Assembly: GCF_015709455.1 (NCBI RefSeq)
Contig: NZ_JADNQW010000005.1
Location: 620,001 to 684,000, forward strand
Origin: Methylosinus sp. H3A
Lineage (GTDB): Bacteria > Pseudomonadota > Alphaproteobacteria > Rhizobiales > Beijerinckiaceae
Direction of reading: 5' to 3'
DNA length: 64,000 nucleotides
This document shows positions 33,523-64,000 of this stretch, piece after piece. A program made the position numbers and the translations under genes. Position 1 is the stretch's first letter, and each line of letters begins with the position of its first letter. The notes below the pieces were generated by a model. It did not search any database. It was given only the letters and a program-made list of their open reading frames with translations, and was not told the origin of the DNA.

Positions 33523-34848
33523 TTGCGTAGGTTTTCGAAGTCCGCCTTTTCGCGCAATGCTCTCGTCCTCGCGCTCGCCTGCGCCGCAGCGCCGGGCGCG
33601 ATCGCCGCAAACGACGCCTATGACGGCCAGGCGGAATGGGCGCAGCGCTACGACGCCGATCCGAAGCTGACCGTCTCGCGCTCGACGACCCCCATTCTCT
33701 CCGCGCAGACGGTGGCGGCGACCGAGACCGCCATCACGCAGCTGCAGGACATCGTCGCGCGCGGCGGCTGGCCCATGGTGCCGGCCGGCCAGCAGCTGCG
33801 CCTCGGCTCCAACGGGCCCGCCGTCTCGGCGCTGCGCCGCCGCCTCATCGTCTCCGGCGACATCGGCGCGGAGGCGGGCGCGAGCCCCGTCTTCGACTCT
33901 TACGTGGAAGCCGCGGTGCGGCGCTTCCAGGCGCGTCACGGCGTCAACGCCACCGGCGTCGTCGCGCAGCAGACCTTCGCCGCGCTCAACGTGTCCGCCG
34001 AGCTGCGCCTGCGTCAGCTCGAGACCAATCTCGTGCGCCTGCGCAGCTTCTCGCGCGATCTCGGCAATCGCTATGTGACGGCCAATATCCCCGCCGCCTC
34101 GGTGGAGACGGTGGAGAACGGCTATGTCGTCACCCATCACACCGCCGGCGTCGGCAAGATCGACCGCCAGTCGCCGGTCATGCAGACCAAGGCGATCCAG
34201 ATCAATTTCAACCCGTTCTGGACCGTGCCCGCATCGGTCATCCGCAAGGATCTGATCCCGAAGATGCAGGCGGACTCCAACTATCTCGCCGACAATCACA
34301 TCCGCGTCTACAATAAGGAGGGCGTCGAGCTCCCTCCGCAGCAGATCAACTGGAACTCGCTGGAGGCGCTGAACTACAAGTTCCGCCAGGACACGGGCGG
34401 CGATTTCAACTCGCTCGGCGTGGTTCGCATCGACATCGCCAATCCTTACGGCGTCTATATGCACGACACGCCGGCCAAGGGCATTTTCGGCGATGATTTC
34501 CGCTTCGTCTCCTCCGGCTGCATCCGCCTGCAGAATGTGCGCGATTATGTCGCCTGGCTGCTGAAGGAGACGCCCGGCTGGGACCGCGACCATATCGACG
34601 AGGCGATCCGCTCCGGCGAGCGCATCGATGTGAGGATCACGCCCGCCGTGCCGGTCTATTGGGTCTATGTCACCGCCTGGGGAGCGCCGGACGGGGTGAT
34701 GCAGTTCCGCGAGGATATTTATCAGCGCGACGGCCTCGGCCTGACGGCCGCCCTGCCGCAATCCGCGCCCGCGGCGACGCCGGTCGCCTCCCGGCAGGCG
34801 GCCCGCTCCTCGCAGCTCTTGCCGGTGTTCGGCGAAGAAGAGAACTGA
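33523..34848 (+). CDS. L,D-transpeptidase with peptidoglycan-binding domain
   Basis: The 441-residue exported enzyme has a signal peptide (ALVLALACAAAPGAIA), a peptidoglycan-binding domain (about 95-160, LGSNGPAVSALRRRL, FDSYVEAAVRRFQARHG) and a YkuD domain (about 185-380) with YMHDTPAKGIFG and the catalytic SSGCIRLQN. It forms 3-3 cross-links in the wall or links lipoproteins. TTG 33523 is preferred since GGAG lies 6 bp upstream; TTG 33511 is another in-frame option and there is no ATG. It is divergent from the sigF operon. Confidence 0.92.
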   Translation: MRRFSKSAFSRNALVLALACAAAPGAIAANDAYDGQAEWAQRYDADPKLTVSRSTTPILSAQTVAATETAITQLQDIVARGGWPMVPAGQQLRLGSNGPAVSALRRRLIVSGDIGAEAGASPVFDSYVEAAVRRFQARHGVNATGVVAQQTFAALNVSAELRLRQLETNLVRLRSFSRDLGNRYVTANIPAASVETVENGYVVTHHTAGVGKIDRQSPVMQTKAIQINFNPFWTVPASVIRKDLIPKMQADSNYLADNHIRVYNKEGVELPPQQINWNSLEALNYKFRQDTGGDFNSLGVVRIDIANPYGVYMHDTPAKGIFGDDFRFVSSGCIRLQNVRDYVAWLLKETPGWDRDHIDEAIRSGERIDVRITPAVPVYWVYVTAWGAPDGVMQFREDIYQRDGLGLTAALPQSAPAATPVASRQAARSSQLLPVFGEEEN

Positions 34849-35025
34849 GCAGGCGCCGGCGCGCTCGGCTGCCCGTGGAATAGGCGCGCGAGCGGCAGTC
34901 TTCGAGCAAGTCGGAAAGCGCACTCGTTTCGAGCCGTGCATCGCGCCACCGCCTCCGGCGCGTCGGTCGCCGCGCGATCGTCAGCCGGCTCAAATCAAGC
35001 CCGGCGTGTCTCGCCGCCGCATTAA

Positions 35026-35123
35026 AGCGCTTTCCGATCGAACGGAATCGTTCGATCGATCAGAATTCGCTCCAAAGAAAGCTAGAGCGCCATCCGATCC
35101 TATTGGATCGGATGGCGCTCTAG
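35026..35123 (+). repeat. Structured dispersed element, variant with 19-bp perfect hairpin
   Basis: AAAGCGCTTTCCGATCGAAC opens a variant of the 20861 element, and CTAGAGCGCCATCCGATCC (35082-35100), loop TATT, and its exact complement (35105-35123) close it. The 538-bp gap between the transpeptidase and the FkbM gene holds this, then about 260 bp of lower-GC sequence with no gene I can support. Confidence 0.65.
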
Positions 35124-35386
35124 ATGCGGCGCGTCCTTCCTCGTTCGACCTCTCGCCTCTCTCGCGCTCCCCGTTCACGCGCGTAGGAGAATACGGCGCG
35201 CAGCCTCACAATTTTTTCGAACAATTACGCGACTATGCCGCTCCAACCAACGACCGGCATCCGTGGACGGCGCACATAGGTCATGTTAGGAACACCTCAA
35301 ATTTCTCGTGTGGCATACCCACCAAATCCTGGCCCGAGTTTCCGAATCAGAAACGCCGCGCCCTCTTCAAAAGGAGATGAACCCAT

Positions 35387-36229
35387 ATGACGGACATTCT
35401 AGCTCGCGGCAGCGAAACTTCACTCGAGCTGAAAAGGGACAGTCTTCCTGAACGCTTTTATCACGAGATTCATAGAATTAATACGGAATACATGATAAAT
35501 GATTACTGGGGCTCGATGAATGAGGAAGTTTCGCTAGCAATCTACGCGTCTGTTCTTCAGCAGGGAGACATAGCTGTAGATTGCGGCGCCAATCGAGGCG
35601 AGCACACGAAAGTCATGGCCCGCCGTTGCGGACCCACAGGTCGAGTATACTCTTTTGAGGCTGTGCCAGAAATGATGGCGAAAGCCCAGCGAATAAACAT
35701 GGGATTCTCGAACATACAATGGATAAACAAGGCCGTCTGCAATGAAGCTGGCGCAGAAGTAGAATTTTTTTCTTACCCGAATGAAGACGGACTGTCCAGC
35801 TTACGTCCTGCGAGCGGGGACACCTCCACATGCAATCGTATCAGCGTCAAGACCACGACGTTGGACGATGAAATAGCCGAGAGCGTCACTCTCATCAAAC
35901 TCGACATCGAAGGGGCGGAGTATAACGCACTGCTCGGTGGCGCAAGAATACTAGAGCACAGCAAGCCCATTATTGTTTTCGAAAACGGAAGAGGAGTGGC
36001 CGCAGAAAGATTTGGGTATTCAAAAGAAGACTTTTTCAATCTTTTCAAAAGATTCGGATATTTTCTATTTTCTATCAGCGGAATGCCATTCACAGAGGAA
36101 TTGTGGGAGAGCACCTCCAATCCCTGGCAATTTATCGCAATCCATCCGACATCCCCGCGGATCGGGAGAGTTTTCTCGGTTACGAACTCTTACCTCTCCT
36201 ACGTCGCAGGGCTGCCTGGATCGCGATAG
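35387..36229 (+). CDS. FkbM-family methyltransferase
   Basis: The 280-residue protein has the FkbM layout: DCGANRGEHTKVMARRCG (SAM loop, about residue 65), VYSFEAVPEM, NKAVCNEAG, and TLIKLDIEGAEYNALLGGA. FkbM-type enzymes O-methylate sugars or polyketides, often in surface glycans. The gene is clearly richer in A+T (many AAT, ATA, AAA codons) than its neighbours, pointing to transfer. A strong AAAAGGAG site precedes ATG 35387. There is no glycosyltransferase next to it, so its substrate is not evident. Confidence 0.88.
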   Translation: MTDILARGSETSLELKRDSLPERFYHEIHRINTEYMINDYWGSMNEEVSLAIYASVLQQGDIAVDCGANRGEHTKVMARRCGPTGRVYSFEAVPEMMAKAQRINMGFSNIQWINKAVCNEAGAEVEFFSYPNEDGLSSLRPASGDTSTCNRISVKTTTLDDEIAESVTLIKLDIEGAEYNALLGGARILEHSKPIIVFENGRGVAAERFGYSKEDFFNLFKRFGYFLFSISGMPFTEELWESTSNPWQFIAIHPTSPRIGRVFSVTNSYLSYVAGLPGSR

Positions 36230-38836: not shown

Positions 38837-39027
38837 GAGCGAGCCTCGAACAAATGACGGGGTTGCGGGCGTCTTCTTGCATGAAGCGGGCCCTGCCGCC
38901 ACCCATATCCGCAGCCTTCGTCGGCGCCGGGCTTTATTTTCACGGCGCGGCGCCTTAACGAGAACGCTGCGCCGCCCGCCCTCGGGAGGCGGTCCGACTG
39001 GCTGAATGACCCTGAACGGAGGTGGAC

Positions 39028-39303
39028 GTGGCTGAAGATCCGCAGGAAAAGGCCAAGCTCGTCGAAGAGATCGTCGAGGTCATCGCTTCGGAGGGGATGA
39101 TCGACCGCACCAAGGTCACGCCCGACGCGACGATCGAGAGCCTCGGCCTGAAATCGGTCGATATCGTCATGATCCTCACCGCCCTCGAGGAAAAGTTCAA
39201 CGTCTATATTCCGATGGATGGCGCGCTGCAGGACGCCAAGAATGTCGAGGGTCTGATCGACGCCATCGCGGAATATGTGCTGAAAGAGAGAGAGAAACAA
39301 TAA
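39028..39303 (+). CDS. Dedicated acyl carrier protein
   Basis: From GTG 39028, with GGAGG 5 bp upstream, this is a 91-residue acidic carrier protein. The phosphopantetheine Ser43 lies in LGLKSVD, in place of the usual DSL motif of housekeeping AcpP, so it is a specialised ACP. It would carry acyl chains for the ketosynthase encoded 1 bp downstream. GTG 39022 is a less likely start. It is first in a seven-gene operon and divergent from mutA. Confidence 0.9.
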   Translation: MAEDPQEKAKLVEEIVEVIASEGMIDRTKVTPDATIESLGLKSVDIVMILTALEEKFNVYIPMDGALQDAKNVEGLIDAIAEYVLKEREKQ

Positions 39304-39304
39304 T

Positions 39305-40549
39305 ATGGCCGCTTCGTCCGGGGGCGTCGGCGAGCGTCGGGTGGTGATTTCGGGAATGGGGACGGTCTCGGCGGCGGGCGTCGGAACCGCGGCGCTGTGG
39401 ACGGCGGCCCGAGACGGAATCTCGCAAGTCCGGCCCCTCGTGACCGAATATCCTTACGACGGGCGCATCCGGATCGCGGCGCAGGTGCCCGATTTCGACC
39501 CCGCCAAATATCTCGAGAAGGCGCTTCTCACCTTCTGCGACCCCTTCACGCAATTCACCCTGGTGGCGGCCGATGAAGCGGTCGCCCAGGCGGGTTTTGC
39601 GCGCGAGGAGCTCTCCGGCCCGCGCGTCGGCGTCATCGTCGGCTCCGGCATCGGCGGGATGACGACGATCGACAATGGCCTGCGCCACTATTACCAGGAG
39701 CGCATCCGGCCCGATCCGTTCAGCGTGCCGCGCCTCATTCCGAGCGCCGCGCCGACGACTCTCGGCATGCGCTATTCCGCCAATGGGCCGACTTTCGCGC
39801 TCGGCAGCGCCTGCTCCTCGGCGAGCCAGGCGGTAGGGCTCGGCGCGCAGATGATCCGCTTCGGCCTCATGGACCGCGCCATCGTCGGCGGCGCCGAGGC
39901 CTGCGTCATCAATGGAACCATCCGCGCCTGGGAAGGCCTGCGCGTGATGACGCCCGATTTCTGCCGCCCCTTCTCCATGGGCCGCAACGGCATGAGTCTC
40001 GGCGAAGGCGCCGCGGTTTTCGTGCTGGAGACGCTCGAATCGGCCCAAAAGCGTGGCCATGCGCCGCTCTGCGAGCTCGCCGGCTATGGCACGACGAGCG
40101 ACGCCAAGGATTTCGTGCGGCCCGATCTCGACGGAATGACCGGCGCGATGCAGGCGGCCCTCGCCGACGCCGGCCTCGAGACGGAGGCCATCGACTATCT
40201 CAACGCCCATGGCACGGCGACGCACGCCAATGACATCACCGAATCGGCCGCCATCGGCCGCGTGTTCGGCGAGCGCGCGGCGCGCCTGCCGGTGTCCTCG
40301 ACCAAGCCGATCCACGGCCATGCGCTGGGCGCCAGCGCCGGGCTCGAGCTGGCGCTGACGATCCGCGCGCTGCAGGAGCAGATCGCGCCGCCGACGATCA
40401 ATTTCCTCGATTTCGACCCGCGCTGCCCGATCGACGCCATCCCCAATGTGGCGCGGCCGATCGAGATTCGCACGGCCATGTCCAACTCCTTCGCCTTCGG
40501 CGGCATCAACGCCGTGCTGATCGTCCGCGCGCTCGCGGGAGGGGCGTGA
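39305..40549 (+). CDS. Beta-ketoacyl-ACP synthase (FabF-like)
   Basis: The 414-residue thiolase-fold enzyme has the Cys-His-His triad of KAS I/II: Cys170 in LGSACSSASQ, His302 in NAHGTATHAND, and His339 in IHGHALGASAG. It condenses malonyl-ACP with an acyl-ACP. The setting, one base after a dedicated acp and next to dehydratase and reductase genes, says it is not the housekeeping FabF but part of a special acyl-chain route. Confidence 0.92.
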   Translation: MAASSGGVGERRVVISGMGTVSAAGVGTAALWTAARDGISQVRPLVTEYPYDGRIRIAAQVPDFDPAKYLEKALLTFCDPFTQFTLVAADEAVAQAGFAREELSGPRVGVIVGSGIGGMTTIDNGLRHYYQERIRPDPFSVPRLIPSAAPTTLGMRYSANGPTFALGSACSSASQAVGLGAQMIRFGLMDRAIVGGAEACVINGTIRAWEGLRVMTPDFCRPFSMGRNGMSLGEGAAVFVLETLESAQKRGHAPLCELAGYGTTSDAKDFVRPDLDGMTGAMQAALADAGLETEAIDYLNAHGTATHANDITESAAIGRVFGERAARLPVSSTKPIHGHALGASAGLELALTIRALQEQIAPPTINFLDFDPRCPIDAIPNVARPIEIRTAMSNSFAFGGINAVLIVRALAGGA

Positions 40550-40966
40550 ATGGCCGCAGAGCCCGAAAGCGCAGAGACGCGCATCGGCCCGCTGCGCGTC
40601 TGCGCGGATGAAGAGCGCGTCATCCGCTACCGCCGCGAGATCGGCTTTCCCGACACGCTGGAGAAGATCGTGCCGGTCGCTTTTCCGGCCGTCTGGCTGA
40701 CGACCGAGGAGATCGACGCCGCGATCCGCGATATTCTCGCGGGCGAGGATGTGGTGCCGGTGCATGAATCGCAGAGCTTCCACTATTTCGCGCCGCTGCG
40801 CGTCGGCGAGAGCTATGACTTGACCGTGTCGCTGCGCCGCGAGGCCGAGCCGCCGCGCCTTTCGGTCAACGCCAGCCTCGCGACGCTGGCGGGCGAGACG
40901 CGCCTGCACGCCGAGACGCTCTTGCGCATCTTCCCCCGCCCGGCGGGCATGGAGCCGGTTCCGTGA
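40550..40966 (+). CDS. Small hot-dog fold protein, dehydratase-like (HadA-like position)
   Basis: The 138-residue protein looks like a single hot-dog domain of the MaoC/FAS1-like dehydratase group (central ESQSFHYFAPLRVGESYDLT), but the catalytic D...N..H motif of the family is missing. It follows the ketosynthase stop directly (TGAATG) and overlaps the next gene by 4 bp. By analogy with mycobacterial HadA, it may be the substrate-binding half of a heterodimeric dehydratase. Confidence 0.65.
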   Translation: MAAEPESAETRIGPLRVCADEERVIRYRREIGFPDTLEKIVPVAFPAVWLTTEEIDAAIRDILAGEDVVPVHESQSFHYFAPLRVGESYDLTVSLRREAEPPRLSVNASLATLAGETRLHAETLLRIFPRPAGMEPVP

Positions 40967-41382
40967 GCGGCGCGCGCCTGCCCGCTGTCGGCGAACGTCT
41001 GCCGGACTGGCGGATCGGCCCCTTCGACGCCGCGGCGCTGCGAGCCTATGCGGCAGCCTCCGGCGACGGCAACCGCCTGCATCTCGACGATGATCTCGCC
41101 CGCGCGATCGGCTTTCCCGCGCCGCCGGTCCATGGCATGAAGCTTCTCGCCGCCTTCGAGCCCCTGCTCTCCGCCTGGCGGCGCGATTTGTTTTTGGCTC
41201 GGCTCTCCGGCAAATTCGTGCAGCCGGTGCTGCGCGGCGAGCCGGTGACGCTCACCGGCCGGGTGCTGCGCTCGTCCCCCGAGGAGGGTGTGTTCTTGAG
41301 ACTTCTGGCCTATGGCGAGGCGCGCGCGCCGGCGATCGTCGGCGAGGCGCTGATGGCTCCGCCGCGAAAGTTCCGCCCGTGA
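40963..41382 (+). CDS. MaoC-type (R)-3-hydroxyacyl dehydratase (HadB-like position)
   Basis: The 139-residue protein has the hydratase-2 signature: YAAASGDGNRLHLDDDLA (Asp35, His40) and GFPAPPVHGMK. The position usually held by Pro in the motif is Arg-Leu here, while Asp and His are kept. It should dehydrate 3-hydroxyacyl-ACP to enoyl-ACP, together with the partner encoded just upstream. GTGA overlaps link it on both sides. Confidence 0.82.
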   Translation: MSGARLPAVGERLPDWRIGPFDAAALRAYAAASGDGNRLHLDDDLARAIGFPAPPVHGMKLLAAFEPLLSAWRRDLFLARLSGKFVQPVLRGEPVTLTGRVLRSSPEEGVFLRLLAYGEARAPAIVGEALMAPPRKFRP

Positions 41383-42176
41383 AGCGCGGGGCGAGACGCA
41401 TTCTCCTCACCGGCGCGTCGAGCGGCATCGGCCGCGCGCTGGCGCTGCGTTATGCGCAGGAGGGCAGGAGCCTCGCGCTGTTCGGGCGCGACGCGGCTCG
41501 GCTGGAGGCAGTCGCGACGGAATGCCGCGCCATGGGCGCGCAAGCCGATGTGACCATCGCCGATGTGCGCGACCGCCGCGCCATGGCGGAGCGCATCGCC
41601 GAGGCGGACGCGCGCGATCCGCTCGATCTCGTCGTCGCCAACGCCGGCGTCTCCACCGGCCTCTCCCCCGGCCAGATCGCCGAAGACCCGGAGGCGGTGC
41701 GCGCGACCTTGTCGATCAATGTGCTCGGCGTGTTCAACACGGTCGAGCCGACCATAGAGGCGATGACGGCGCGCAGGCGCGGCCAGATCGCCATCGTCGG
41801 CTCCATGGCCGGGCTGCGCGGCCTGCCCTATTCTCCGGCCTATTGCGCCAGCAAGGCGGCCGTTCACCTCTATGCCGATTCCCTGCGCGGCGCGCTCAGG
41901 CCGCATGGGGTGCATGTGAGCCTCATCGTGCCCGGATTCGTGGCGACGCCCATGAACGCCGAGCTCAAGGCGCCGCAGGCGGGAAAAATGAGCGACGAGC
42001 GGGCGGCGGAGATCATCGCGCGCGGCCTCGAGAAGCGCGCGGCGGTGATCGCCTTTCCGCTGTTCGTCTATTATGCGATGAAGCTGTTTGCGATGCTGCC
42101 GCCCCACGCCGTCGATTCGGTCATGCGGCTCTTCGAAGTGGCCGTGCCTCAGACCCATGAACGGGAGGAGCCGTGA
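41379..42176 (+). CDS. Short-chain dehydrogenase/reductase, likely ketoreductase
   Basis: The 265-residue SDR has TGASSGIG (residues 11-18) for the cofactor, NAG at 88-90, and the catalytic Ser142, Tyr155 and Lys159. A hydrophobic segment near residue 225 (VIAFPLFVYYAMKLFAMLP) suggests membrane association, as in 3-ketodihydrosphingosine reductase-like SDRs. In this operon it most likely reduces the 3-keto group made by the ketosynthase. Start GTG 41379 overlaps the previous stop by 4 bp. Confidence 0.85.
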   Translation: MKRGARRILLTGASSGIGRALALRYAQEGRSLALFGRDAARLEAVATECRAMGAQADVTIADVRDRRAMAERIAEADARDPLDLVVANAGVSTGLSPGQIAEDPEAVRATLSINVLGVFNTVEPTIEAMTARRRGQIAIVGSMAGLRGLPYSPAYCASKAAVHLYADSLRGALRPHGVHVSLIVPGFVATPMNAELKAPQAGKMSDERAAEIIARGLEKRAAVIAFPLFVYYAMKLFAMLPPHAVDSVMRLFEVAVPQTHEREEP

Positions 42177-43354
42177 TCGACAGCATCTTGTTTTGGCTCG
42201 TCGTTCTGTCGGCTGTCTTCTGGGCCTGCTCCGCCTTGCTGTTGCTTCTCTCGTCGCTCGCGGCCTTCGTTCATCCCTGGCTCATCGCCCGGCGCGGGAC
42301 CAGCGATGAGCAACCGCCCGTCTCGCTGGTCCTGCCGGTGAAAATGCTCGACCAGGGCTTCGAGCGGGCGCAGGAATCGGCCCTCGCGCAGAAATATCCA
42401 CAGATGGAAGCGCTCGCCTCGGCGACGGAGGCGGATTCGCCCGCCATCGCCGCCATGCGCGACATTTTCGCGCGCCATCCGCAGATTCCGTCGCGCATTC
42501 TCCACTCCACGGCGCGTTTCGCCGCGAGCCCCAAGGTCGACAATCTGTTCGCGCCCTTCAACGAAGCACACAACGATGTGATCTTCATGAAGGACTCCAA
42601 TGTCGTGCTGGAGCCGGACGATCTCGTCGAGACGATGCGGCATTTGAAGCCCGGCGTCGGCATGGTCTGCGCGATCCCCTATGCCGCGCGCCCGGAGAAT
42701 TTCGCCGCCCATGTCGAGGCCGGCATCATGAACGGCCCGCATCAGCGCATGTTGTTCGCGGCCTCCGCGCTCGGCGGCGGCTTCGGAGTCGGCAAGATCA
42801 TGCTGTTTCGGCGCAGCGATTTTTTGCGCGCCGGCGGCTTCGGCGCGATCGCGCATACGGTGGGAGAGGACAACGCCACCGCCAAGGCGCTGAGCCGCAT
42901 CAAGCTGCGCACCGTCTTCTCGCATCGACTGGTGCGCCAGGAGCTCGGCGAGCGCAATCTGCTCGACATCTACAATCGGCAATTGCGCTGGAGCGTCGTG
43001 CGCCGCGACGACGAGATTCTCTCCTTTCTGGCCGAGCCCTTCTGCCAGGCGCTGCCGGCCTTTGCGGCGGCGGCGATCGGGGCCCCGCTCGTCGGAGTCA
43101 CGCCGGCGACGACCTTGACCGTCACTTTTGGCTTGTGGCTGAGCACGGAGACGCTGCTTTCCATCGCCAAGGGCTGGAAAGTATCTTGGGCCGCGCCGGT
43201 GATCTTCCTGGCGCGCGAGGGATTGATGTTCGCAGTGTGGCTGCACGCTTGGACCGCCACCAAGGTCGTCTGGGCCAGGACGACGATCGACACGCGCTCC
43301 TGCGGCGAGACGGCCGCCGCGACGGAGCCGCGGGTCGCGAAGGAAGAAGGATAA
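42173..43354 (+). CDS. GT21-like membrane glycosyltransferase (ceramide glucosyltransferase-like)
   Basis: The 393-residue protein has an N-terminal helix (residues 5-35), a GT-A domain with SLVLPVKMLD, KDSN (Asp141), GEDN (231-234) and the NRQLRW motif (269-273), then two or three C-terminal helices (about 285-350). DxN-type motif plus Q/RxxRW is the signature of ceramide glucosyltransferases and HpnI-like enzymes. It probably puts a sugar from a nucleotide donor onto a membrane lipid. GTG start overlaps the SDR stop by 4 bp. Confidence 0.85.
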   Translation: MIDSILFWLVVLSAVFWACSALLLLLSSLAAFVHPWLIARRGTSDEQPPVSLVLPVKMLDQGFERAQESALAQKYPQMEALASATEADSPAIAAMRDIFARHPQIPSRILHSTARFAASPKVDNLFAPFNEAHNDVIFMKDSNVVLEPDDLVETMRHLKPGVGMVCAIPYAARPENFAAHVEAGIMNGPHQRMLFAASALGGGFGVGKIMLFRRSDFLRAGGFGAIAHTVGEDNATAKALSRIKLRTVFSHRLVRQELGERNLLDIYNRQLRWSVVRRDDEILSFLAEPFCQALPAFAAAAIGAPLVGVTPATTLTVTFGLWLSTETLLSIAKGWKVSWAAPVIFLAREGLMFAVWLHAWTATKVVWARTTIDTRSCGETAAATEPRVAKEEG

Positions 43355-43360
43355 AACCGC

Positions 43361-44659
43361 TTGATCCTCGCTCTTCTGCAGTTTCTCGTCGATAGCGTCT
43401 GGCTGATCGCGGCGCTGATCATGATCCTGATCGGCGCGGGCTTCGTCGCCATCATCGCGCGCTTCCTCTTCGACCAGTTGCGCGGCGCGCGCGACCTCGA
43501 GCCGATCGTCCTGGCCGAGGAGGAGTTGCCGCATGTGCTGCTGCAAATCCCCGTGTTCAACGAGGCCGAGGTGACAGAGCAGGCGCTGCGCTGCGTCGCC
43601 GAGCTCGACTGGCCGAAAGACCGGCTGCACATTCAATTGCTCGACGATTCGACCGACGAGACGCCCCAGCGCGCCGAGGCGGTGGCGATCGAGCTGCGCG
43701 CCAAGGGCGTCGACATTCATCATGTGCGCCGCGCCGATCGCTCCGGCTTCAAGGCCGGCGCCTGCGCCGAGGGGCTGAAGCTGTTCGACGCGCCTTTCGT
43801 CGCCATGCTGGACGCCGATTTCCGCCCGCCGTCGAACTGGCTGCGCCGCACCGTGCCGCTGCTGGTGAAGGACGATCGCGCCGGCTTCGTGCAATCGCGC
43901 TGCGAATTCTCCAACTACCGCAAGAACTGGCTGACGCGTGCGCAAGGTCTCGTGCAGGACGGGCATTTCCTCGTCGAGCAGCGCACGCGCGCGCTCGCCG
44001 GCTGGCTGTTCCAGTTCAACGGCACCGGCGGCATTTGGCGCCGCGCCACCATCGACGCCGTCGGCGGCTGGTCGGATTATTCGCTCTGCGAGGATTTGGA
44101 CCTCACCGTGCGCGCGGCGCTCGGCGGCTGGCACGGAATCTTCGTCTCCGAGCCGCCCATCCCCGGCCAGGTGCCGGAGGGGCTGCGCGACTATCGCCGC
44201 CAGCAGCGCCGCTGGTCCAACGGCTTCGTGCAAGTGGCGCAGAAGACCGTGCTGCCGCTGTGGAACGCGCCCTGGTCGCTGACCCGGCGCGTCGCCGCCA
44301 TCGTGCTCATCGTGCATCAGATCTTCTTCCCGACGGCGGCGATCGGCCTCATCGCTCTGCTGCTCGGCGTGATCCTGCGCGGCTCGCTGACGCCCTATCT
44401 GCCGGTGCTGGAGTTCATCTTCCTCGAGACGCTGGTCGTCGTGCTCGGCTTCACGCTTCTGCCCTATCTGGCGCTGAAGCGCGGCGCGCTGACCGATTAT
44501 GTGAAGACCATGGTCTCGGTGCCGCCGCTGATGATCTATCTCGCCTTCTCCAATGGCGCGAAAATCCTGCAGACGCTGCGCGGCCGCAAATCCACCTTCA
44601 AGCGCACGCCCAAGACGGAACATGCGCCCGCCGCGCCGACGATTCAGGAAGCGGAATGA
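43361..44659 (+). CDS. Processive-type family 2 glycosyltransferase
   Basis: The 432-residue protein has one N-terminal helix, a GT2 domain with LLDDSTDET (Asp95-96), DADF (151-153), CEDLDL (Glu244-Asp245) and the QQRRW motif (281-285), followed by four C-terminal helices. This is the cellulose/glucomannan synthase-like architecture. Start is TTG 43361 with AAGGA 9 bp upstream; no ATG is near. It ends the acp-ketosynthase operon and could extend the sugar that the preceding enzyme attaches to lipid. Confidence 0.88.
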   Translation: MILALLQFLVDSVWLIAALIMILIGAGFVAIIARFLFDQLRGARDLEPIVLAEEELPHVLLQIPVFNEAEVTEQALRCVAELDWPKDRLHIQLLDDSTDETPQRAEAVAIELRAKGVDIHHVRRADRSGFKAGACAEGLKLFDAPFVAMLDADFRPPSNWLRRTVPLLVKDDRAGFVQSRCEFSNYRKNWLTRAQGLVQDGHFLVEQRTRALAGWLFQFNGTGGIWRRATIDAVGGWSDYSLCEDLDLTVRAALGGWHGIFVSEPPIPGQVPEGLRDYRRQQRRWSNGFVQVAQKTVLPLWNAPWSLTRRVAAIVLIVHQIFFPTAAIGLIALLLGVILRGSLTPYLPVLEFIFLETLVVVLGFTLLPYLALKRGALTDYVKTMVSVPPLMIYLAFSNGAKILQTLRGRKSTFKRTPKTEHAPAAPTIQEAE

Positions 44660-59300: not shown

Positions 59301-60962
59301 TCACCAGAAGACCTGGGCGCGCGCGAGGAAAAGACTCGGGTGGTCGCCGTTGAGAAAAGGACGATCGGAGGGCGCGATCAGCGTCATCGCGCGCGTCCAA
59401 TTGGCCTGGAATCGCACCCCGCGCACCGGATACCAATTGAGCGCGACCGTCAGATTCTCCTGCCGTCCGCCCAGCGTCGCGGTATTGGCGATCGCTTTTT
59501 GCGCGGCCGAGCCCGTGGCCGTCGCCAGATAGACGAAGCTCGCGGGAGCGACGCCGCCATTGTTCAGATCGATCCCGTCATAGCGCGCGGCGACCTCGAA
59601 GGCGCCATAGCCGCCCTTGTTCAGCGGATTTTTGATCCTCACATCGCCGAATGTGCCGGGCGAGCTCCAGTTCTTGTCATAGCCGTCATAAGAAGCGGCG
59701 CGCGATTCGCCGGTCAGGAACAGCGAAGCGGCGATTTGATAGGCGCTGTAATGGAGCCGCGATCCGCCGCCATTCGCATAGAGAAAGGCGAGCAGCGCAT
59801 CCCGCTCATATTGCGCGCCGACATATTCGGCCGTCACCGAGACCGGGCCATAGGCGGCGGCGGCCTCGAAGCCGTAATTATAGGAATATTTCAGGCAGCT
59901 CGGCCGCTGAACGAAGGGGGCGACGAGCTGGCCGGCGCCGGTCGTCGCGACATTGAGCGTGGCCGCCGAGGCCGCACAGGAGAGATCCTGAGCCGCCGGC
60001 ACGCGGACCGTCGCGCCGCCTGCGCCCAGAATTCCGGTCAGCTCCCGCTCGAAGCCAGACGCGCCCGGCGTGAGATTGGTGGCGTCGGTCGCGCCAGTCG
60101 AGCTGTTCGGTCGGTGATAGACGAAGGCCGCGCCGAGATGGACGAGCGCGTCCTCCTCGTGAACGGGCGCATAGATCGCCCGCGCCGAGGCGTCCCAATA
60201 TTGCGCGCCGCCTGGGGGCGGAGCGGTCGCCGTATCCTGAGGGCTCGTCGAGAAAATGCCGCCCTTGAGCGCCCAGCTCTCGTCGCCGACGCCAACGGCC
60301 GCGCCTATGTGGCGGGCCGGCCCCAGATTGGCGGCGAGGCCCCGCTCGATGAAGGTCATATGCTTGTCGCCGTCGAGAACCTCCCGGCCGAAGGGCTCGT
60401 GGAAATTGCCGATCTGCAAGGAGACCGGCTGCGCGCTGATCCAGCCGGGAAGGAGTTTTGCGCGATAGGCGAGATAGGCGTCGCGGATGCCGGCGACGCC
60501 GCCGGCGGCGGTGGCGAAATCATATTGGAAGCGATAGATCCAATTGCCGTAAGCGCGGCCGGCGACCTCGAGCTCGGCGCGGCGGAAGCCGGCGTTGCTG
60601 CGCCTGATCGTGTCGGCGGAGCTGGCGAAGCCGCCGTCCATATGGATGCGGCCGCCGATCTTGAAGTCGAAGCTCTTGTCCTCGCTCTCGACGAAAAGGC
60701 CGTTCTTGAAGCTGACGAAGACGGGCGGCGGGGCGTTCGCGGCCGGCGCGGCTTTCGTCGAATTCGGATGCGTCGTCGCCTCATGCGTCACGGATCGGGA
60801 GTCGAGCCTGGCCTCGAGACGCTTCAGCTCGGCCTTCAACGCTCGTATTTCGCTCGCCGTATCGGCCAGCGCCGGGCCGGGCGCGCCCAACGCCGCCGCG
60901 AGCGCGAGCGTGACGATGGCGCCGCCGCTGCGCCATCCATGAGCTTCGCCTCCGCCGAGCAT
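59301..60962 (-). CDS. OprO/OprP-family porin, paralogue 1
   Basis: The 553-residue outer-membrane protein has a signal peptide (LALAAALGAPGPALA), a short N-terminal coiled coil (DTASEIRALKAELKRLEARL), then a beta-barrel starting FVSFKNGLFVESEDKSFDFK and IGGRIHMDGGF and ending in an aromatic residue (ARAQVFW). This is the phosphate-selective porin O/P family; some members pass phosphate or pyrophosphate. GGGGGGAA precedes the ATG. It shares layout and many blocks with the next two genes. Confidence 0.92.
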   Translation of the reverse strand: MLGGGEAHGWRSGGAIVTLALAAALGAPGPALADTASEIRALKAELKRLEARLDSRSVTHEATTHPNSTKAAPAANAPPPVFVSFKNGLFVESEDKSFDFKIGGRIHMDGGFASSADTIRRSNAGFRRAELEVAGRAYGNWIYRFQYDFATAAGGVAGIRDAYLAYRAKLLPGWISAQPVSLQIGNFHEPFGREVLDGDKHMTFIERGLAANLGPARHIGAAVGVGDESWALKGGIFSTSPQDTATAPPPGGAQYWDASARAIYAPVHEEDALVHLGAAFVYHRPNSSTGATDATNLTPGASGFERELTGILGAGGATVRVPAAQDLSCAASAATLNVATTGAGQLVAPFVQRPSCLKYSYNYGFEAAAAYGPVSVTAEYVGAQYERDALLAFLYANGGGSRLHYSAYQIAASLFLTGESRAASYDGYDKNWSSPGTFGDVRIKNPLNKGGYGAFEVAARYDGIDLNNGGVAPASFVYLATATGSAAQKAIANTATLGGRQENLTVALNWYPVRGVRFQANWTRAMTLIAPSDRPFLNGDHPSLFLARAQVFW

Positions 60963-61060
60963 GCGCGTTCCCCCCGATCGCCAGCCTGGCTTTTAATCAC
61001 GGCTGGCTCGAGCGAGGCTCGCCTAGCGAGAGCAGAGGAAAGAGGGCCCCCTCGAATGCG

Positions 61061-61087
61061 AATGGCCGCCCACGAGGGGCGGCCATT
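61061..61087 (-). terminator. Hairpin after porin paralogue 2
   Basis: AATGGCCGCCC (61061-61071) and GGGCGGCCATT (61077-61087) form a perfect 11-bp stem with a 5-nt loop, 28 bp past the stop at 61115. The T-tract is poor, so termination is inferred from position. Confidence 0.5.
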
Positions 61088-61114
61088 GCGTCGATCGAGC
61101 TTCTGCGTCGATTC

Positions 61115-62773
61115 TCACCAAAAGACGTTGGCGCGGGCGAGGAAGAAGCTCGGATGGTCTCCATTGAGGAAGGGACGATCGGAGGGCGCGACCATCGTCA
61201 TCGCGCGCGTCCAATTGGCCTGCAGACGGAAGCCGTTGACCGGATACCAGTTCAAGCCGATCGTCAGATTTTCCTGGCGGCCGCCGAGCGTCGCCGTGCT
61301 GGCGAGCGCCTTCTGAAGCGCCGAGCCGGCCACGGTCGCCGCATAGACGAAATTGCCGTCGACGACCCCGCCATTGTTGAGATTGAGCTCGCTGAAGCGG
61401 GCCGCGACCTCCCAGGCGCCCCAGCCGCCCTTGTTGACGGGATCCTTGATCTGGACCGGGCCGATCGTGCCGGGCGTGAAGTAGTTCTTGTCGTAGCCAT
61501 TATAGGAGGCGGCGCGCGATTCGCCGGTCAGGAACACAGAGCCCTGGACATAGTAGCCGCTGTATTGGAGGCTGGAGCCGCCGCCATTGCCGAGCAGGAG
61601 CCCGTTGACCGGATCGCGCTCGTATCGCGTGGCGATATATTCGCCCTGCAGCGAGACCGGGCCATAGGCCGCGGAGGCTTCGAAACCGTAGCTATAAGCG
61701 TATTTCAAGCAGCCGTTCTTCAGGATGAAAGGCGCGGACAGGAGACCGAGGCCGGTCGCGCTCGTCGCCAGGCTGCCGGAGGCGGCGCAAGTCAAATCCT
61801 GAGCGGCGGACACGCGCGTCCAGGTTCCGCTGCCGCCCAGAATATCCGCCTCCTCGCGCTCCGTGCCGGCGCCCGGCCGCAGGAAGGCGGCATTGGTGGC
61901 GGCCGTCGTATCGTTCGGCTTGTGATAGCGGAAGGACGAGCCGATGTGCAGCAGCTTGTCCTCTTCCTGAATGGGCGCATAGGTGGCGCGCACCGCCGCG
62001 TCCCAATATTGCGCGCCGCCGGTGGGCGGAGCGACCGCAGTGTCCTGCGGCGAGGTGGAGAAGATGCCGGTCTTCACCGACCAAGTCTTGTCGCCCACGG
62101 TGACGGCCGCGCCCGTATGGCGGCTCGGCGCGAGGACGGTCGGCAGCGCGCGCTCGAGGAAGGTGATGTTGCTCGACGAGCTGTTCGTCTCCATGCTGAA
62201 CGGCTCGAAGAAATTGCCGATCTGGAAGGTGACGGGCTGCTTGGAGATCGCCTCCGGCAGCAGCTTGGCGCGATAGGCCAGATAGGCGTCGCGAATTCCG
62301 GTCACGCCGGTGTTGGTGAAATCATATTGGAACCGGTAGTACCAGTCTTTATAGGCCTTGCCTTCGATCCAGATCTGCGCGCGGCGGAAGCCGACATTGC
62401 TGCGCGACATGGTGTCGGCCGAGCTCGAGAAGCCGCCATCCGTCTGGATGCGGCCGCCGATCTTGAAGCTGAACGCCTTGTCCTCGGTCTCGACGAAGAG
62501 GCCGTTCTTGAAGCTGACGAACACCGGCGGCGGGGCGACGAGCCCGGGCAGGGTTTTGGCGGAATTCAGCGCATTCTTGACCTGGACATTGGTCTTGGCC
62601 TGATCGGCGACCTTGGCCTCGAGCCGCTTGAGCTGCTCCTTCAGCGCCTTGATCTCGCTCGCCGTGTCGGCCAGCGCCGCGGCCGGAACGCCCAGCAGCC
62701 CGCAAAAAGCGACGAACGCCACGCCGCCCGAGAGCCGCTGCGCCATTTTCGACTCGATTTTCTGTTCTTTCAT
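61115..62773 (-). CDS. OprO/OprP-family porin, paralogue 2
   Basis: The 552-residue porin starts at ATG 62773 (AGGGGG upstream) with a signal peptide (GGVAFVAFCGLLGVPAAALA), the coiled-coil DTASEIKALKEQLKRLEAKV, the barrel start FVSFKNGLFVETEDKAFSFK, and a C-terminal ARANVFW. It parallels paralogue 1 along the whole length. The frame runs upstream to 62908, but that part is the regulatory region. It is divergent from paralogue 3, with 625 bp between them. Confidence 0.94.
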   Translation of the reverse strand: MKEQKIESKMAQRLSGGVAFVAFCGLLGVPAAALADTASEIKALKEQLKRLEAKVADQAKTNVQVKNALNSAKTLPGLVAPPPVFVSFKNGLFVETEDKAFSFKIGGRIQTDGGFSSSADTMSRSNVGFRRAQIWIEGKAYKDWYYRFQYDFTNTGVTGIRDAYLAYRAKLLPEAISKQPVTFQIGNFFEPFSMETNSSSSNITFLERALPTVLAPSRHTGAAVTVGDKTWSVKTGIFSTSPQDTAVAPPTGGAQYWDAAVRATYAPIQEEDKLLHIGSSFRYHKPNDTTAATNAAFLRPGAGTEREEADILGGSGTWTRVSAAQDLTCAASGSLATSATGLGLLSAPFILKNGCLKYAYSYGFEASAAYGPVSLQGEYIATRYERDPVNGLLLGNGGGSSLQYSGYYVQGSVFLTGESRAASYNGYDKNYFTPGTIGPVQIKDPVNKGGWGAWEVAARFSELNLNNGGVVDGNFVYAATVAGSALQKALASTATLGGRQENLTIGLNWYPVNGFRLQANWTRAMTMVAPSDRPFLNGDHPSFFLARANVFW

Positions 62774-63398
62774 CAAAGCCCCCTGCGCTCGTCGTTCGGC
62801 GCTCGGCGTGAACGGTCCGGATTTCTGTTCGCCGGGCGGAATTTCATTCGATCGAATGAACATCTCGCATCGACGACAAGTCTCCCGGTCCGAAGCGGAC
62901 ACGCGCAACGCTCGACAATTGCGCCATTTGCCTGTTAATCGACAGATGACGCCTAAATTCCCGCCAACTCCGCTCGTCTGATGAGCTTCGACAGGCGAAA
63001 TGTTCTTTAGACTCGCTACATGTAATTGTCTTACATTTCGATTGGCCGTTTGCGCAAGGCCCGAGTCGGCGTCACGTAAGGTTTTTCACGTAAGTGTTGC
63101 CGATCGGCCACGATCGGGGCGCGCAGAATATGTGGTGCGACGATATTACGGACCCGCCATCGCCGCGCGGATATCCATCGTCGAAGCATGGGAGACGGCA
63201 CAAAATTGTTGTGATTTAAATGGTTTATATCGAGCTTGCGGTCACAAGCGCTCGCCCCGCCCGCGTGGCATTTGGGCCACACCTTACGTACAAACCGCCG
63301 TCACAATTCGCCGCCCCAGTCTTTTGTGATGAATGTGTCACAAAACGCCTCTAGCGCTGCCATAGCGGTAATCAATTCAAGGCTAGAGGCTGACGAAC
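62774..63398. promoter_or_regulatory. Divergent porin control region
   Basis: This AT-richer 625-bp gap lies between porins 2 and 3. It holds CACGTAAG at 63073 and 63087 plus an inverted ACCTTACGTAC at 63281, and five TTGTGA or TCACAA hexamers between 63209 and 63343, including TTTTGTGA and TCACAAAA facing each other at 63322-63345. These look like binding sites for one or two regulators. No gene is seen. Confidence 0.55.
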
Positions 63399-64000
63399 AT
63401 GACACAGGTACCGAACGTTCAGACGATCGCGAAAGGCGCGACGCCTTCGAAGCTGCTGGGAGGCGTGGCCGCCATCGCCCTCCTCGGCGCGTTCGGCGCG
63501 CCCACGGCGGCTCTCGCCGACACGTCGAGCGAGATCAAGGCGCTCAAGGCCGAGCTGAAGCGGCTCGAGCACAAGCTCGACGAGCAGGCCAAGACGACCC
63601 ATCAGGTCAAGAACGCGCTGAACTCGGCCAAGTCCGCCCCGGCGAGCAACGCCCCGCCGCCGGTGTTCGTCAGCTTCAAGAACGGCCTCTATGTCGAGAC
63701 CGAGGACAAGAGCTTCGACTTCAAGATCGGCGGCCGCATCCAGGTCGACGGCGGCTTCGGCGGTCGCGCCGACACCTTCTCCGCGAGCAATGTCGGCTTC
63801 CGCCGCGCTCGCCTCGAGGTGGAGGGCAAGGCCTATAAGAACTGGTATTACAAGTTCCAATACGACTTCACGGGCTCCGGCGCCGCCGGCATTCGCGACG
63901 CCTTCCTCGCCTATCGCGCCAAGCTGCTGCCCGAGCAGATCACCAAGCAGCCGGTCACCTTCCAGGTCGGCAATCAATACGAGCCCTTCGGCCTGGAGAC
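63399..64000 (+). CDS. OprO/OprP-family porin, paralogue 3 (partial, cut by window end)
   Basis: ATG 63399 opens MTQVPNVQTIAKGATPSKLL, then a signal peptide core (VAAIALLGAFGAPTAALA), the coiled coil DTSSEIKALKAELKRLEHKL, the FVSFKNGLYVETEDKSFDFK barrel start and IGGRIQVDGGFGGR. About 200 residues lie in the window; the 3' end is outside. It is clearly a paralogue of the two porins on the other strand. The longer frame starting at 63236 in another phase is a shadow. Confidence 0.92.
   Translation, partial: MTQVPNVQTIAKGATPSKLLGGVAAIALLGAFGAPTAALADTSSEIKALKAELKRLEHKLDEQAKTTHQVKNALNSAKSAPASNAPPPVFVSFKNGLYVETEDKSFDFKIGGRIQVDGGFGGRADTFSASNVGFRRARLEVEGKAYKNWYYKFQYDFTGSGAAGIRDAFLAYRAKLLPEQITKQPVTFQVGNQYEPFGLE

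Follow-up and report, generated by a model that had tools for sequence, protein, structure and literature searches.

A conserved acyl-carrier and glycosyltransferase operon of Methylosinus sp. H3A as the probable half of a split glycosphingolipid pathway

Which lipid would call for an acyl carrier protein of its own, a set of chain-elongation enzymes and two membrane glycosyltransferases within one operon? This question is raised by seven consecutive genes in a 64,000-nucleotide stretch of the Methylosinus sp. H3A genome (contig NZ_JADNQW010000005.1, positions 620,001 to 684,000; here the window, or G000:C5:620001-684000, where G000 is the window genome and G and L numbers denote sampled genomes and loci). 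All seven lie on the plus strand, as first noted, and encode in order an acyl carrier protein (ACP), a ketosynthase (KS), two small hot-dog proteins (HD1 and HD2), a short-chain dehydrogenase (SDR), a GT21-like glycosyltransferase and a GT2-like glycosyltransferase (Table 1). An initial reading of the letters alone, the first-pass annotation, had proposed a dedicated operon joining acyl-chain synthesis to membrane glycosyltransferases, and the gene content bears this out. Very probably the operon belongs to a ceramide or glycosphingolipid pathway, and it is probably the acyl-supply and glycosylation half of a glycosphingolipid pathway that is split in Methylosinus. The ceramide link is well supported; we infer that the bacterial ceramide synthase (bCerS) is the enzyme that takes the acyl chain from its donor.

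The seven genes do form a compact and conserved operon. Its genes overlap or nearly touch, as had been described: three junctions are 4-bp overlaps, and the remaining three are gaps of 0, 1 and 6 bp. A divergent methylmalonyl-CoA mutase small-subunit gene (mutA-like) flanks the operon on one side and a convergent YqgE/AlgH gene on the other. The best start of the ACP gene is the GTG at 39028, which has a GGAGG upstream at a suitable spacing and agrees with the start originally chosen; an alternative in-frame GTG at 39022 overlaps this GGAGG.

Table 1. Coordinates of the operon and its putative control region (window numbering) and of two ceramide genes elsewhere in the window genome (contig numbering)
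Feature	Position	Strand	Basis or remark
Putative control region, in the gap that separates the operon from the divergent mutA-like gene	38837..39027	.	From gene positions
ACP, specialised acyl carrier protein, 91 aa, operon head	39028..39303	+	Pfam PP-binding E 6.6e-8; clade apart from AcpR
KS, FabF-like 3-ketoacyl-ACP synthase	39305..40549	+	Pfam ketoacyl-synt; TIGR03150 387 bits, cut-off 494
HD1, non-catalytic-type hot-dog subunit resembling HadA	40550..40966	+	Without Pfam family; AlphaFold2 model and Foldseek
HD2, MaoC/HadB-like catalytic hot-dog subunit	40963..41382	+	MaoC Pfam E 1.7e-10
SDR, short-chain dehydrogenase	41379..42176	+	adh_short E 7.7e-46
GT21 membrane glycosyltransferase, ceramide glucosyltransferase type	42173..43354	+	Glyco_transf_21 E 4.2e-42
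GT2 membrane glycosyltransferase, cellulose-synthase-like catalytic core	43361..44659	+	Pfam Glyco_trans_2_3, NCBIfam; PDB cellulose synthases
Serine palmitoyltransferase (SPT)-like gene	G000:C5:4347335-4348504		Only SPT match of the window genome at E <=1e-60
bCerS gene	G000:C5:4348712-4349845		Genome search match

The only PDB molecule matched by GT21 is ceramide glucosyltransferase (E 3e-29), presumably UGCG, and GT21 aligns with the solved enzyme through all four motifs, D, D, D and RxxRW, which we take to be the D1, D2, D3 and (Q/R)xxRW motifs of this enzyme class. The motif alignment and the PDB match confirm the earlier assignment of GT21 to the ceramide-glucosyltransferase type, and together with its Glyco_transf_21 domain predict such an activity. 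It differs from its eukaryotic counterpart in being bacterial and in lying inside an acyl-synthesis operon. GT21 is also related to the hopanoid glycosyltransferase HpnI, but its score against the HpnI model TIGR03472 (148.5 bits) is far under the curated cut-off of 310. The PDB matches of GT2 are cellulose synthases (best E 7e-17), and GT2 probably adds a further sugar.

Genes for the ceramide itself are found at a second locus of the window genome (L054, G000:C5 ~4347332-4351547), which encodes SPT, bCerS, a desaturase-like protein and an FA_hydroxylase protein, so that the two enzymes by which a bacterial ceramide pathway is recognised, SPT and bCerS, are both present. They are 34% and 36% identical, respectively, to their E. 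coli BL21 counterparts. Among solved structures the SPT comes nearest to serine palmitoyltransferases and almost as near to 2-amino-3-ketobutyrate CoA ligase, and its identity therefore rests on the bCerS neighbour too. The desaturase-like protein has a sphingolipid delta-4-desaturase N-terminal domain and an FA_desaturase domain and gave no PDB match, and yeast Scs7 provides the only PDB matches of the hydroxylase. The operon and L054 are 3.69 Mb apart along the 4.39-Mb contig, or at least 0.70 Mb apart if the contig is circular. Two histidine kinase genes, possible regulators, come right after the SPT–bCerS–desaturase–hydroxylase genes (L054:13663-16303), and similar genes follow the SPT locus in the congeners L055, L057 and L060 (the first gene of L060 was checked against Pfam).

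The two loci go together in related genomes. Three samples were searched, namely 60 relatives (36 of them from the family of the window genome), 397 genomes of the order and 385 genomes of the class, and the reference proteins for AasR and CerR/Epi were those of E. coli BL21(DE3). HD1 is present in 17 of the 60 relatives, including 10/10 genomes of the genus with the window genome counted, bCerS in 23 and SPT (E <=1e-60) in 27. Within the family, HD1, SPT of at least 63% and bCerS of at least 54% identity coincide exactly in the same 16 genomes. Among the other 20, one has SPT at 54% and bCerS at 38% (G032), one has bCerS only, at 37% (G031), and four (G011, G017, G034 and G035) have SPT-type matches of 42-46% without bCerS; such lower SPT matches can be other alpha-oxoamine synthases. 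Since this co-occurrence implies a need for the SPT/bCerS locus, the operon does not appear to be self-contained, as the first-pass annotation had held.

The first-pass annotation had also suggested looking for the seven-gene order in relatives, and of the 15 loci retrieved from relatives by an HD1 match (L019-L033), 11 have this order complete, the other four lacking one to several members. Among the named relative loci (80 kept of 83, of which 16 end within 6.5 kb of the ACP gene), the ACP gene is followed by KS in 79, HD1 in 75, HD2 in 73, SDR in 57, GT2 in 53 and GT21 in 37. The lower counts of SDR and the glycosyltransferases identify ACP-KS-HD1-HD2 as the core of this module, to which the other three genes are additions. 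The related operons come from Methylocystis, Methylocapsa, Methylocella, Methylovirgula, Beijerinckia, Rhodoblastus, Labrys and Phreatobacter, and the closest named ACPs, all from Methylosinus, are 100, 96 and 88% identical. In the Beijerinckia/Methylocella/Methylocapsa/Methylovirgula group, unplaced loci included, GT21 is found at 0/23 loci (8 incomplete) and GT2 at 16/23. A class-wide HD1 profile search, which scored at most 11 candidates per genome in a sample with few family members, detected HD1 in the window genome only.

SPT-, bCerS- and desaturase-like neighbours were recognised at three of the first relative loci, and genes for SPT, bCerS or the desaturase lie within the fetched flanks of 22 of the 80 named loci. 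Such adjacency occurs at 10/23 loci of the Beijerinckia/Methylocella/Methylocapsa/Methylovirgula group, 3/3 of Labrys, 6/6 of Phreatobacter, 2/5 of Hyphomicrobiales metagenome-assembled genomes (MAGs) and 1/27 of the Methylocystis-like group (L124), and at none of 4 Methylosinus-like loci, 2 of Methylobacteriaceae MAGs and 10 of Rhodoblastus type (one incomplete). The earlier statement that the absence of SPT excludes a standard sphingolipid locus thus stands in so far as no SPT lies beside the operon in the window genome, its sole match at E <=1e-60 being elsewhere, and falls on the second locus and on these 22 neighbourhoods.

The order-wide KS search gave matches in 104/397 genomes at E 1e-100, 34 of them with KS of at least 49% identity. 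Since this E value also catches relatives of 43-48%, and at least one of 51% (G817), outside the module clade of the KS tree, module calls used 49% identity and gene context. Sixteen KS loci were fetched and 12 are of module type: 11 by their place in the module clade, and L205, from Labrys, by way of its relative L137, which is in the clade. At five of the 12, bCerS lies on the same strand upstream of the ACP gene at a distance of at most ~110 bp (L201, L202, L203, L205 and L207, from the four families f23, f220 (twice), f221 and f22), and at one of these it overlaps the ACP gene by 4 bp. The other seven have no bCerS nearby, two of them being on contigs of 5.3 and 11 kb. The recurrence of bCerS directly upstream of the ACP gene argues for a supply of the N-acyl chain. 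LptF/LptG-type permease genes are also seen near SPT or the module (L033:12787-15215, L030, L028, L100 and L065:19921-22067); they are confirmed by Pfam in L033, annotated in E. coli BL21 and look-alikes in the remaining loci, and, like an ABC-2 transporter in some of these loci, they are candidate sphingolipid export genes.

The core would make its chain with a HadAB-like dehydratase. In mycobacteria, the HadAB heterodimer acts in long-chain elongation. HD1 has no Pfam or NCBIfam family match, and its profile found nothing useful among PDB sequences; the best Foldseek matches of its AlphaFold2 model (mean pLDDT 89.9) are A chains of mycobacterial HadAB (4rlt_A, E 9.6e-7, TM 0.62), with 14-18% identity and TM ~0.6 to the HadAB chains listed. 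HD1 lacks the SGDxN..H motif in the alignment, and the 120 of its 393 relatives that were listed have no Pfam domain and, where named, are called hypothetical protein except for one 'acyl-CoA thioesterase FadM'. The HD2 profile has HadB-type chains as its best matches (4rv2_B and 5zy8_B), and the catalytic residues S33, G34, D35, N37 and H40 are invariant in an 11-row alignment. HD1 and HD2 thereby show the arrangement of a HadAB-type dehydratase, paired hot-dog proteins of which one carries the hydratase motif, and together they look like a HadAB-type heterodimer, as judged from the HD1 model and the HD2 profile. They differ from the mycobacterial HadAB/HadBC 3-hydroxyacyl-ACP dehydratase in the low identity of HD1 and in the lack of a mycolate context of the Methylosinus operon.

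The operon ACP scores below the cut-off of every listed NCBIfam ACP model, including PRK06508 (32.8 bits, cut-off 83), which we take to be AcpXL, the ACP of a very-long-chain system. Cys170, His302, Lys334 and His339 of KS are invariant in a 13-row alignment, and in the KS tree the module forms a 19-row clade (support 100/97) whose early branches include loci with bCerS upstream. The possibility, raised at the outset as fatal to a special role, that these were the only housekeeping ACP and KS of the genome can be set aside, as a housekeeping-type pair lies elsewhere, an ACP gene at C5:1339131 adjoining a FabF-like gene at C5:1337759 whose product is 36% identical to the operon KS. The window genome also has a solitary KS paralogue (G000:C5:4140068-4141267; L018:8072-9247) that is 70% identical to the operon KS; the 18 kb fetched around it showed none of the other six operon genes. 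A comparable additional KS (68%) is present in the Methylocystis genome G026. Three small ACP-like paralogues of the genome (L164, L165 and L166) have similar carrier motifs (like LTSFAAVQLMLALE); the ACP tree places them away from both AcpP and the module ACP. An ACP domain and an acyl-AMP-ligase domain share one 989-residue open frame at G000:C5:1395491-1397398 (L167), and the ligase matches of congeners lie in frames of similar length.

A specialised ACP is already part of the proteobacterial ceramide pathway of Caulobacter crescentus and E. coli BL21 (SPT, AcpR, AasR, CerR/Epi and bCerS). AcpR and AasR have been described, and the SPT of other Proteobacteria is stated to prefer acyl-AcpR in the available text of PMC9386255; the available portion of its main text does not mention ketoacyl, dehydratase, glycosyltransferase, Rhizobiales, Methylocystis or Beijerinck. 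In the accessible part of PMC11087976, Caulobacter bCerS is placed in the cytoplasm and CerR in the periplasm. Methylosinus shares clear SPT and bCerS homologues and the involvement of a specialised ACP with this pathway, and differs in having KS, the HadAB-like hot-dog proteins, GT21 and GT2 in addition. CerR/Epi (E 1e-20) is found in 4/60 relatives, AasR of at least 42% in the same four, and none of these has HD1. The 17 HD1-bearing genomes of this sample have no CerR/Epi match at E 1e-20, and their AasR matches are at most 39%, many of them in frames far longer than AasR; G018 has a 33% match in a frame of ordinary length, and G006, G012, G016 and G025 have none at threshold. The window genome itself gave no match to Epi at 1e-20, and its AasR matches are weak, the best having identities of 34, 37 and 33% in open frames of 989, 2892 and 763 aa; it thus lacks the AcpR/AasR/CerR gene set.

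In the ACP tree (30 rows, with the module rows of G508, G646, G624 and G507 and the AcpR of G057 left out, and row x_G732 disregarded), 12 module ACPs form one clade (90/93) and six AcpRs another (97/95), the sequences being short and the E. coli AcpR on a long branch. The operon ACP does not group with the AcpRs encoded beside aasR and spt, and in G477 and G478 a module-type ACP and an AcpR coexist and fall in separate clades. Judged by its sequence, the module ACP therefore appears to be a second specialised ACP, other than AcpR, in bacteria with sphingolipid genes. Two SPT lineages are also seen in the order, the family's own type (L054, L124 and L102) and an E. coli/Caulobacter-like type in Labrys, Phreatobacter and AcpR-bearing genomes (compared with L065): the SPTs of L102 and L124 are 34% identical to the E. 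coli SPT, the SPT-type proteins of Labrys and Phreatobacter 42-46%, and the five AcpR-neighbour SPTs compared 49-53%.

SDR carries GASSGIG and YxxxK, which we take to be SDR motifs, and is a candidate reductase of 3-keto-sphinganine, of keto-ceramide or of 3-ketoacyl-ACP. That it acts as a 3-keto reductase has about an even chance; the assignment is reasonable because sampled family and Labrys genomes with the module SDR have no CerR/Epi match (E 1e-20) and because BT_0972, the Bacteroides 3-ketosphinganine reductase, is an SDR according to the available text of PMC9278070. The first-pass annotation had deduced a 3-hydroxy or unsaturated product from the missing enoyl reductase. This conclusion is not forced: the core is often without a ketoreductase (no SDR after the ACP gene in 23/80 named loci), and therefore the housekeeping FabG and FabI probably complete the cycle.

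These observations lead to a plausible scheme, in which the reactions, the length of the chain, the enzyme that receives it from the ACP and the sugars are predictions from gene content, conservation, co-occurrence, adjacency, motifs and the HD1 fold. KS would lengthen an acyl chain carried by the operon's own ACP, SDR or the housekeeping FabG would carry out the reduction, the HadAB-like HD1–HD2 heterodimer would dehydrate the chain, and a housekeeping enoyl reductase would end each round. The acyl-ACP may then be the dedicated donor for ceramide formation, most likely of the N-acyl chain installed by bCerS, with bCerS, SPT, the sphingolipid-desaturase-like enzyme and the Scs7-like hydroxylase supplied from the second locus. 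For the missing 3-keto reductase, SDR would be the strongest candidate. GT21 may glucosylate the ceramide, glucose being the presumed sugar, and GT2 may add more sugar.

Several observations weigh against this scheme. The operon and L054 are unlinked in the window genome and lie side by side in only one of 10 same-genus genomes (G006). The HD1 fold match is not exclusive to HadA, thioesterase-type hot-dog proteins scoring nearly as well, and both hot-dog genes are absent from L139 and HD2 from L112 and L121. G018 and Beijerinckia mobilis (G012) have SPT and bCerS without an SDR at the locus and without an Epi match, and another reductase must therefore act there; G508 and G646 have Epi and also an SDR beside the module, on the opposite strand. 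Six of the 34 order genomes with KS of at least 49% also have CerR/Epi, and the module is therefore no simple substitute for AasR/CerR. The idea that the module replaces AasR/AcpR for SPT in a mutually exclusive manner, taken from the 17 HD1-bearing genomes and the four with CerR and close AasR among the 60 relatives, was dropped in its exclusive form on account of these six. Nine Rhodoblastus-type loci consist of ACP-KS-HD1-HD2 only, without SDR or glycosyltransferases (a tenth is incomplete); bCerS was not matched in 5/5 Rhodoblastus-type genomes tested, and so the core can exist without ceramide synthase. The family-type SPT was not found in 9/9 tested (best 42% to the SPT of the window genome). 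These low scores were at one point read as absence of any SPT, a reading withdrawn since E. coli-type SPTs score as low (32-38%) against the SPT of the window genome, the SPT-type proteins of Labrys and Phreatobacter at 33-36% and the genomes of these two genera at 36-37% in the search that covered Rhodoblastus, so that only absence of the family's own type is established. A CerR-like gene in the SDR position of Rhodoblastus was likewise rejected: its match is 24-28%, it is presumably an NDUFA9-like reductase, and the five tested genomes are without bCerS. The core may thus have a ceramide-independent role; the single Rhodoblastus row of the KS tree nests inside the family clade (96/95), suggesting that secondary loss is the likelier history.

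Whether the acyl-ACP is used by bCerS rather than by SPT is evenly balanced in our judgement. An unlikely alternative is that the module ACP loads SPT, KS-HD1-HD2 making the long-chain base precursor on the ACP in place of AcpR/AasR while bCerS uses acyl-CoA. The preference of SPT for acyl-AcpR in other Proteobacteria (PMC9386255, available text), the lack of a CerR match or a close AasR in the family and the SPT-type gene adjoining the core in Phreatobacter are consistent with it. However, the gene in line with ACP-KS in four families is bCerS and not SPT, and an AcpR-AasR-CerR-SPT cluster coexists with module genes elsewhere in the genomes G477, G478 and G508 (in G553 a contig end cuts the cluster before SPT), four of the six order genomes with both KS and CerR/Epi, so the module is not needed for SPT there; at L198 (G477) only the module ACP and KS are detected, and L199 (G508) has no HD1. 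It is less probable still that the acyl chain built by the core serves another lipid, such as a hopanoid ester, lipid A or an ornithine lipid, and that its co-occurrence with SPT and bCerS reflects lineage history. The Rhodoblastus-type core and the weak match of GT21 to HpnI would fit this explanation, but the repeated adjacency of bCerS and SPT in several families, their presence, at the thresholds given above, in exactly the HD1-bearing genomes of the family and the restriction of GT21 matches to ceramide glucosyltransferase among solved structures argue against it. Very improbable is an ordinary accessory duplicate of type II fatty acid synthesis co-transcribed with unrelated glycosyltransferases: a FabF-like KS and a solitary KS paralogue would be expected of it, and against these stand the seven-gene order kept in relatives, the distinct clade of the ACP and the housekeeping AcpP and FabF elsewhere.

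Three further genes, neighbours with similar starts at 59301-64000 of the window (two on the minus and one on the plus strand, the last cut by the window end), give the impression of a tandem porin-like family. The gene at 35387-36229, which looks like an FkbM-type methyltransferase gene, presumably, lies in a stretch of lower G+C content (0.586 over 34001-36000) and was possibly acquired horizontally.

In agreement with the first-pass annotation, which knew of no pathway with these genes, no description of the seven-gene set was found in the open-licence papers of PMC, nor was a title or abstract opening on sphingolipids made by Methylosinus or Methylocystis found in the open-licence literature; in the available text of PMC6460317 the sphingolipid term is confined to the reference list. 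According to the available text of a taxonomic survey, sphingolipids are apparently restricted to Sphingomonadales within the class (PMC7179689), and Caulobacter is known to make them (PMC9386255, available text). A parallel in kind, the polyketide-derived sphingolipids of SgaAB in Pseudomonas fluorescens MYb115, also couples dedicated ketosynthase chemistry to sphingoid lipid synthesis; as far as the available text of PMC12134224 goes, it differs in that SgaA is a polyketide synthase with an SPT-like enzyme, whereas the Methylosinus proteins are stand-alone, of the type II fatty acid synthesis kind and linked mainly to bCerS.

Glycosylated ceramides are best known from animals and plants. For the bacterial ceramide synthase, whose acyl donor may to our knowledge be either CoA or ACP, the present loci put forward a specific ACP as a candidate donor and its enzymes as a candidate source of the chain. 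It is possible, though we put it forward tentatively, that a second specialised acyl carrier system exists. On an ACP different from AcpR, and with a KS and a HadAB-like dehydratase of its own, this system would make a perhaps very-long-chain N-acyl group and pass the acyl-ACP to ceramide synthase; in alphaproteobacterial methanotrophs a single operon would unite it with a ceramide glucosyltransferase, amounting to a glucosylceramide pathway of near-eukaryote-like design. Methylosinus and Methylocystis are important methane sinks, and the operon predicts that their members would contain glycosphingolipids.

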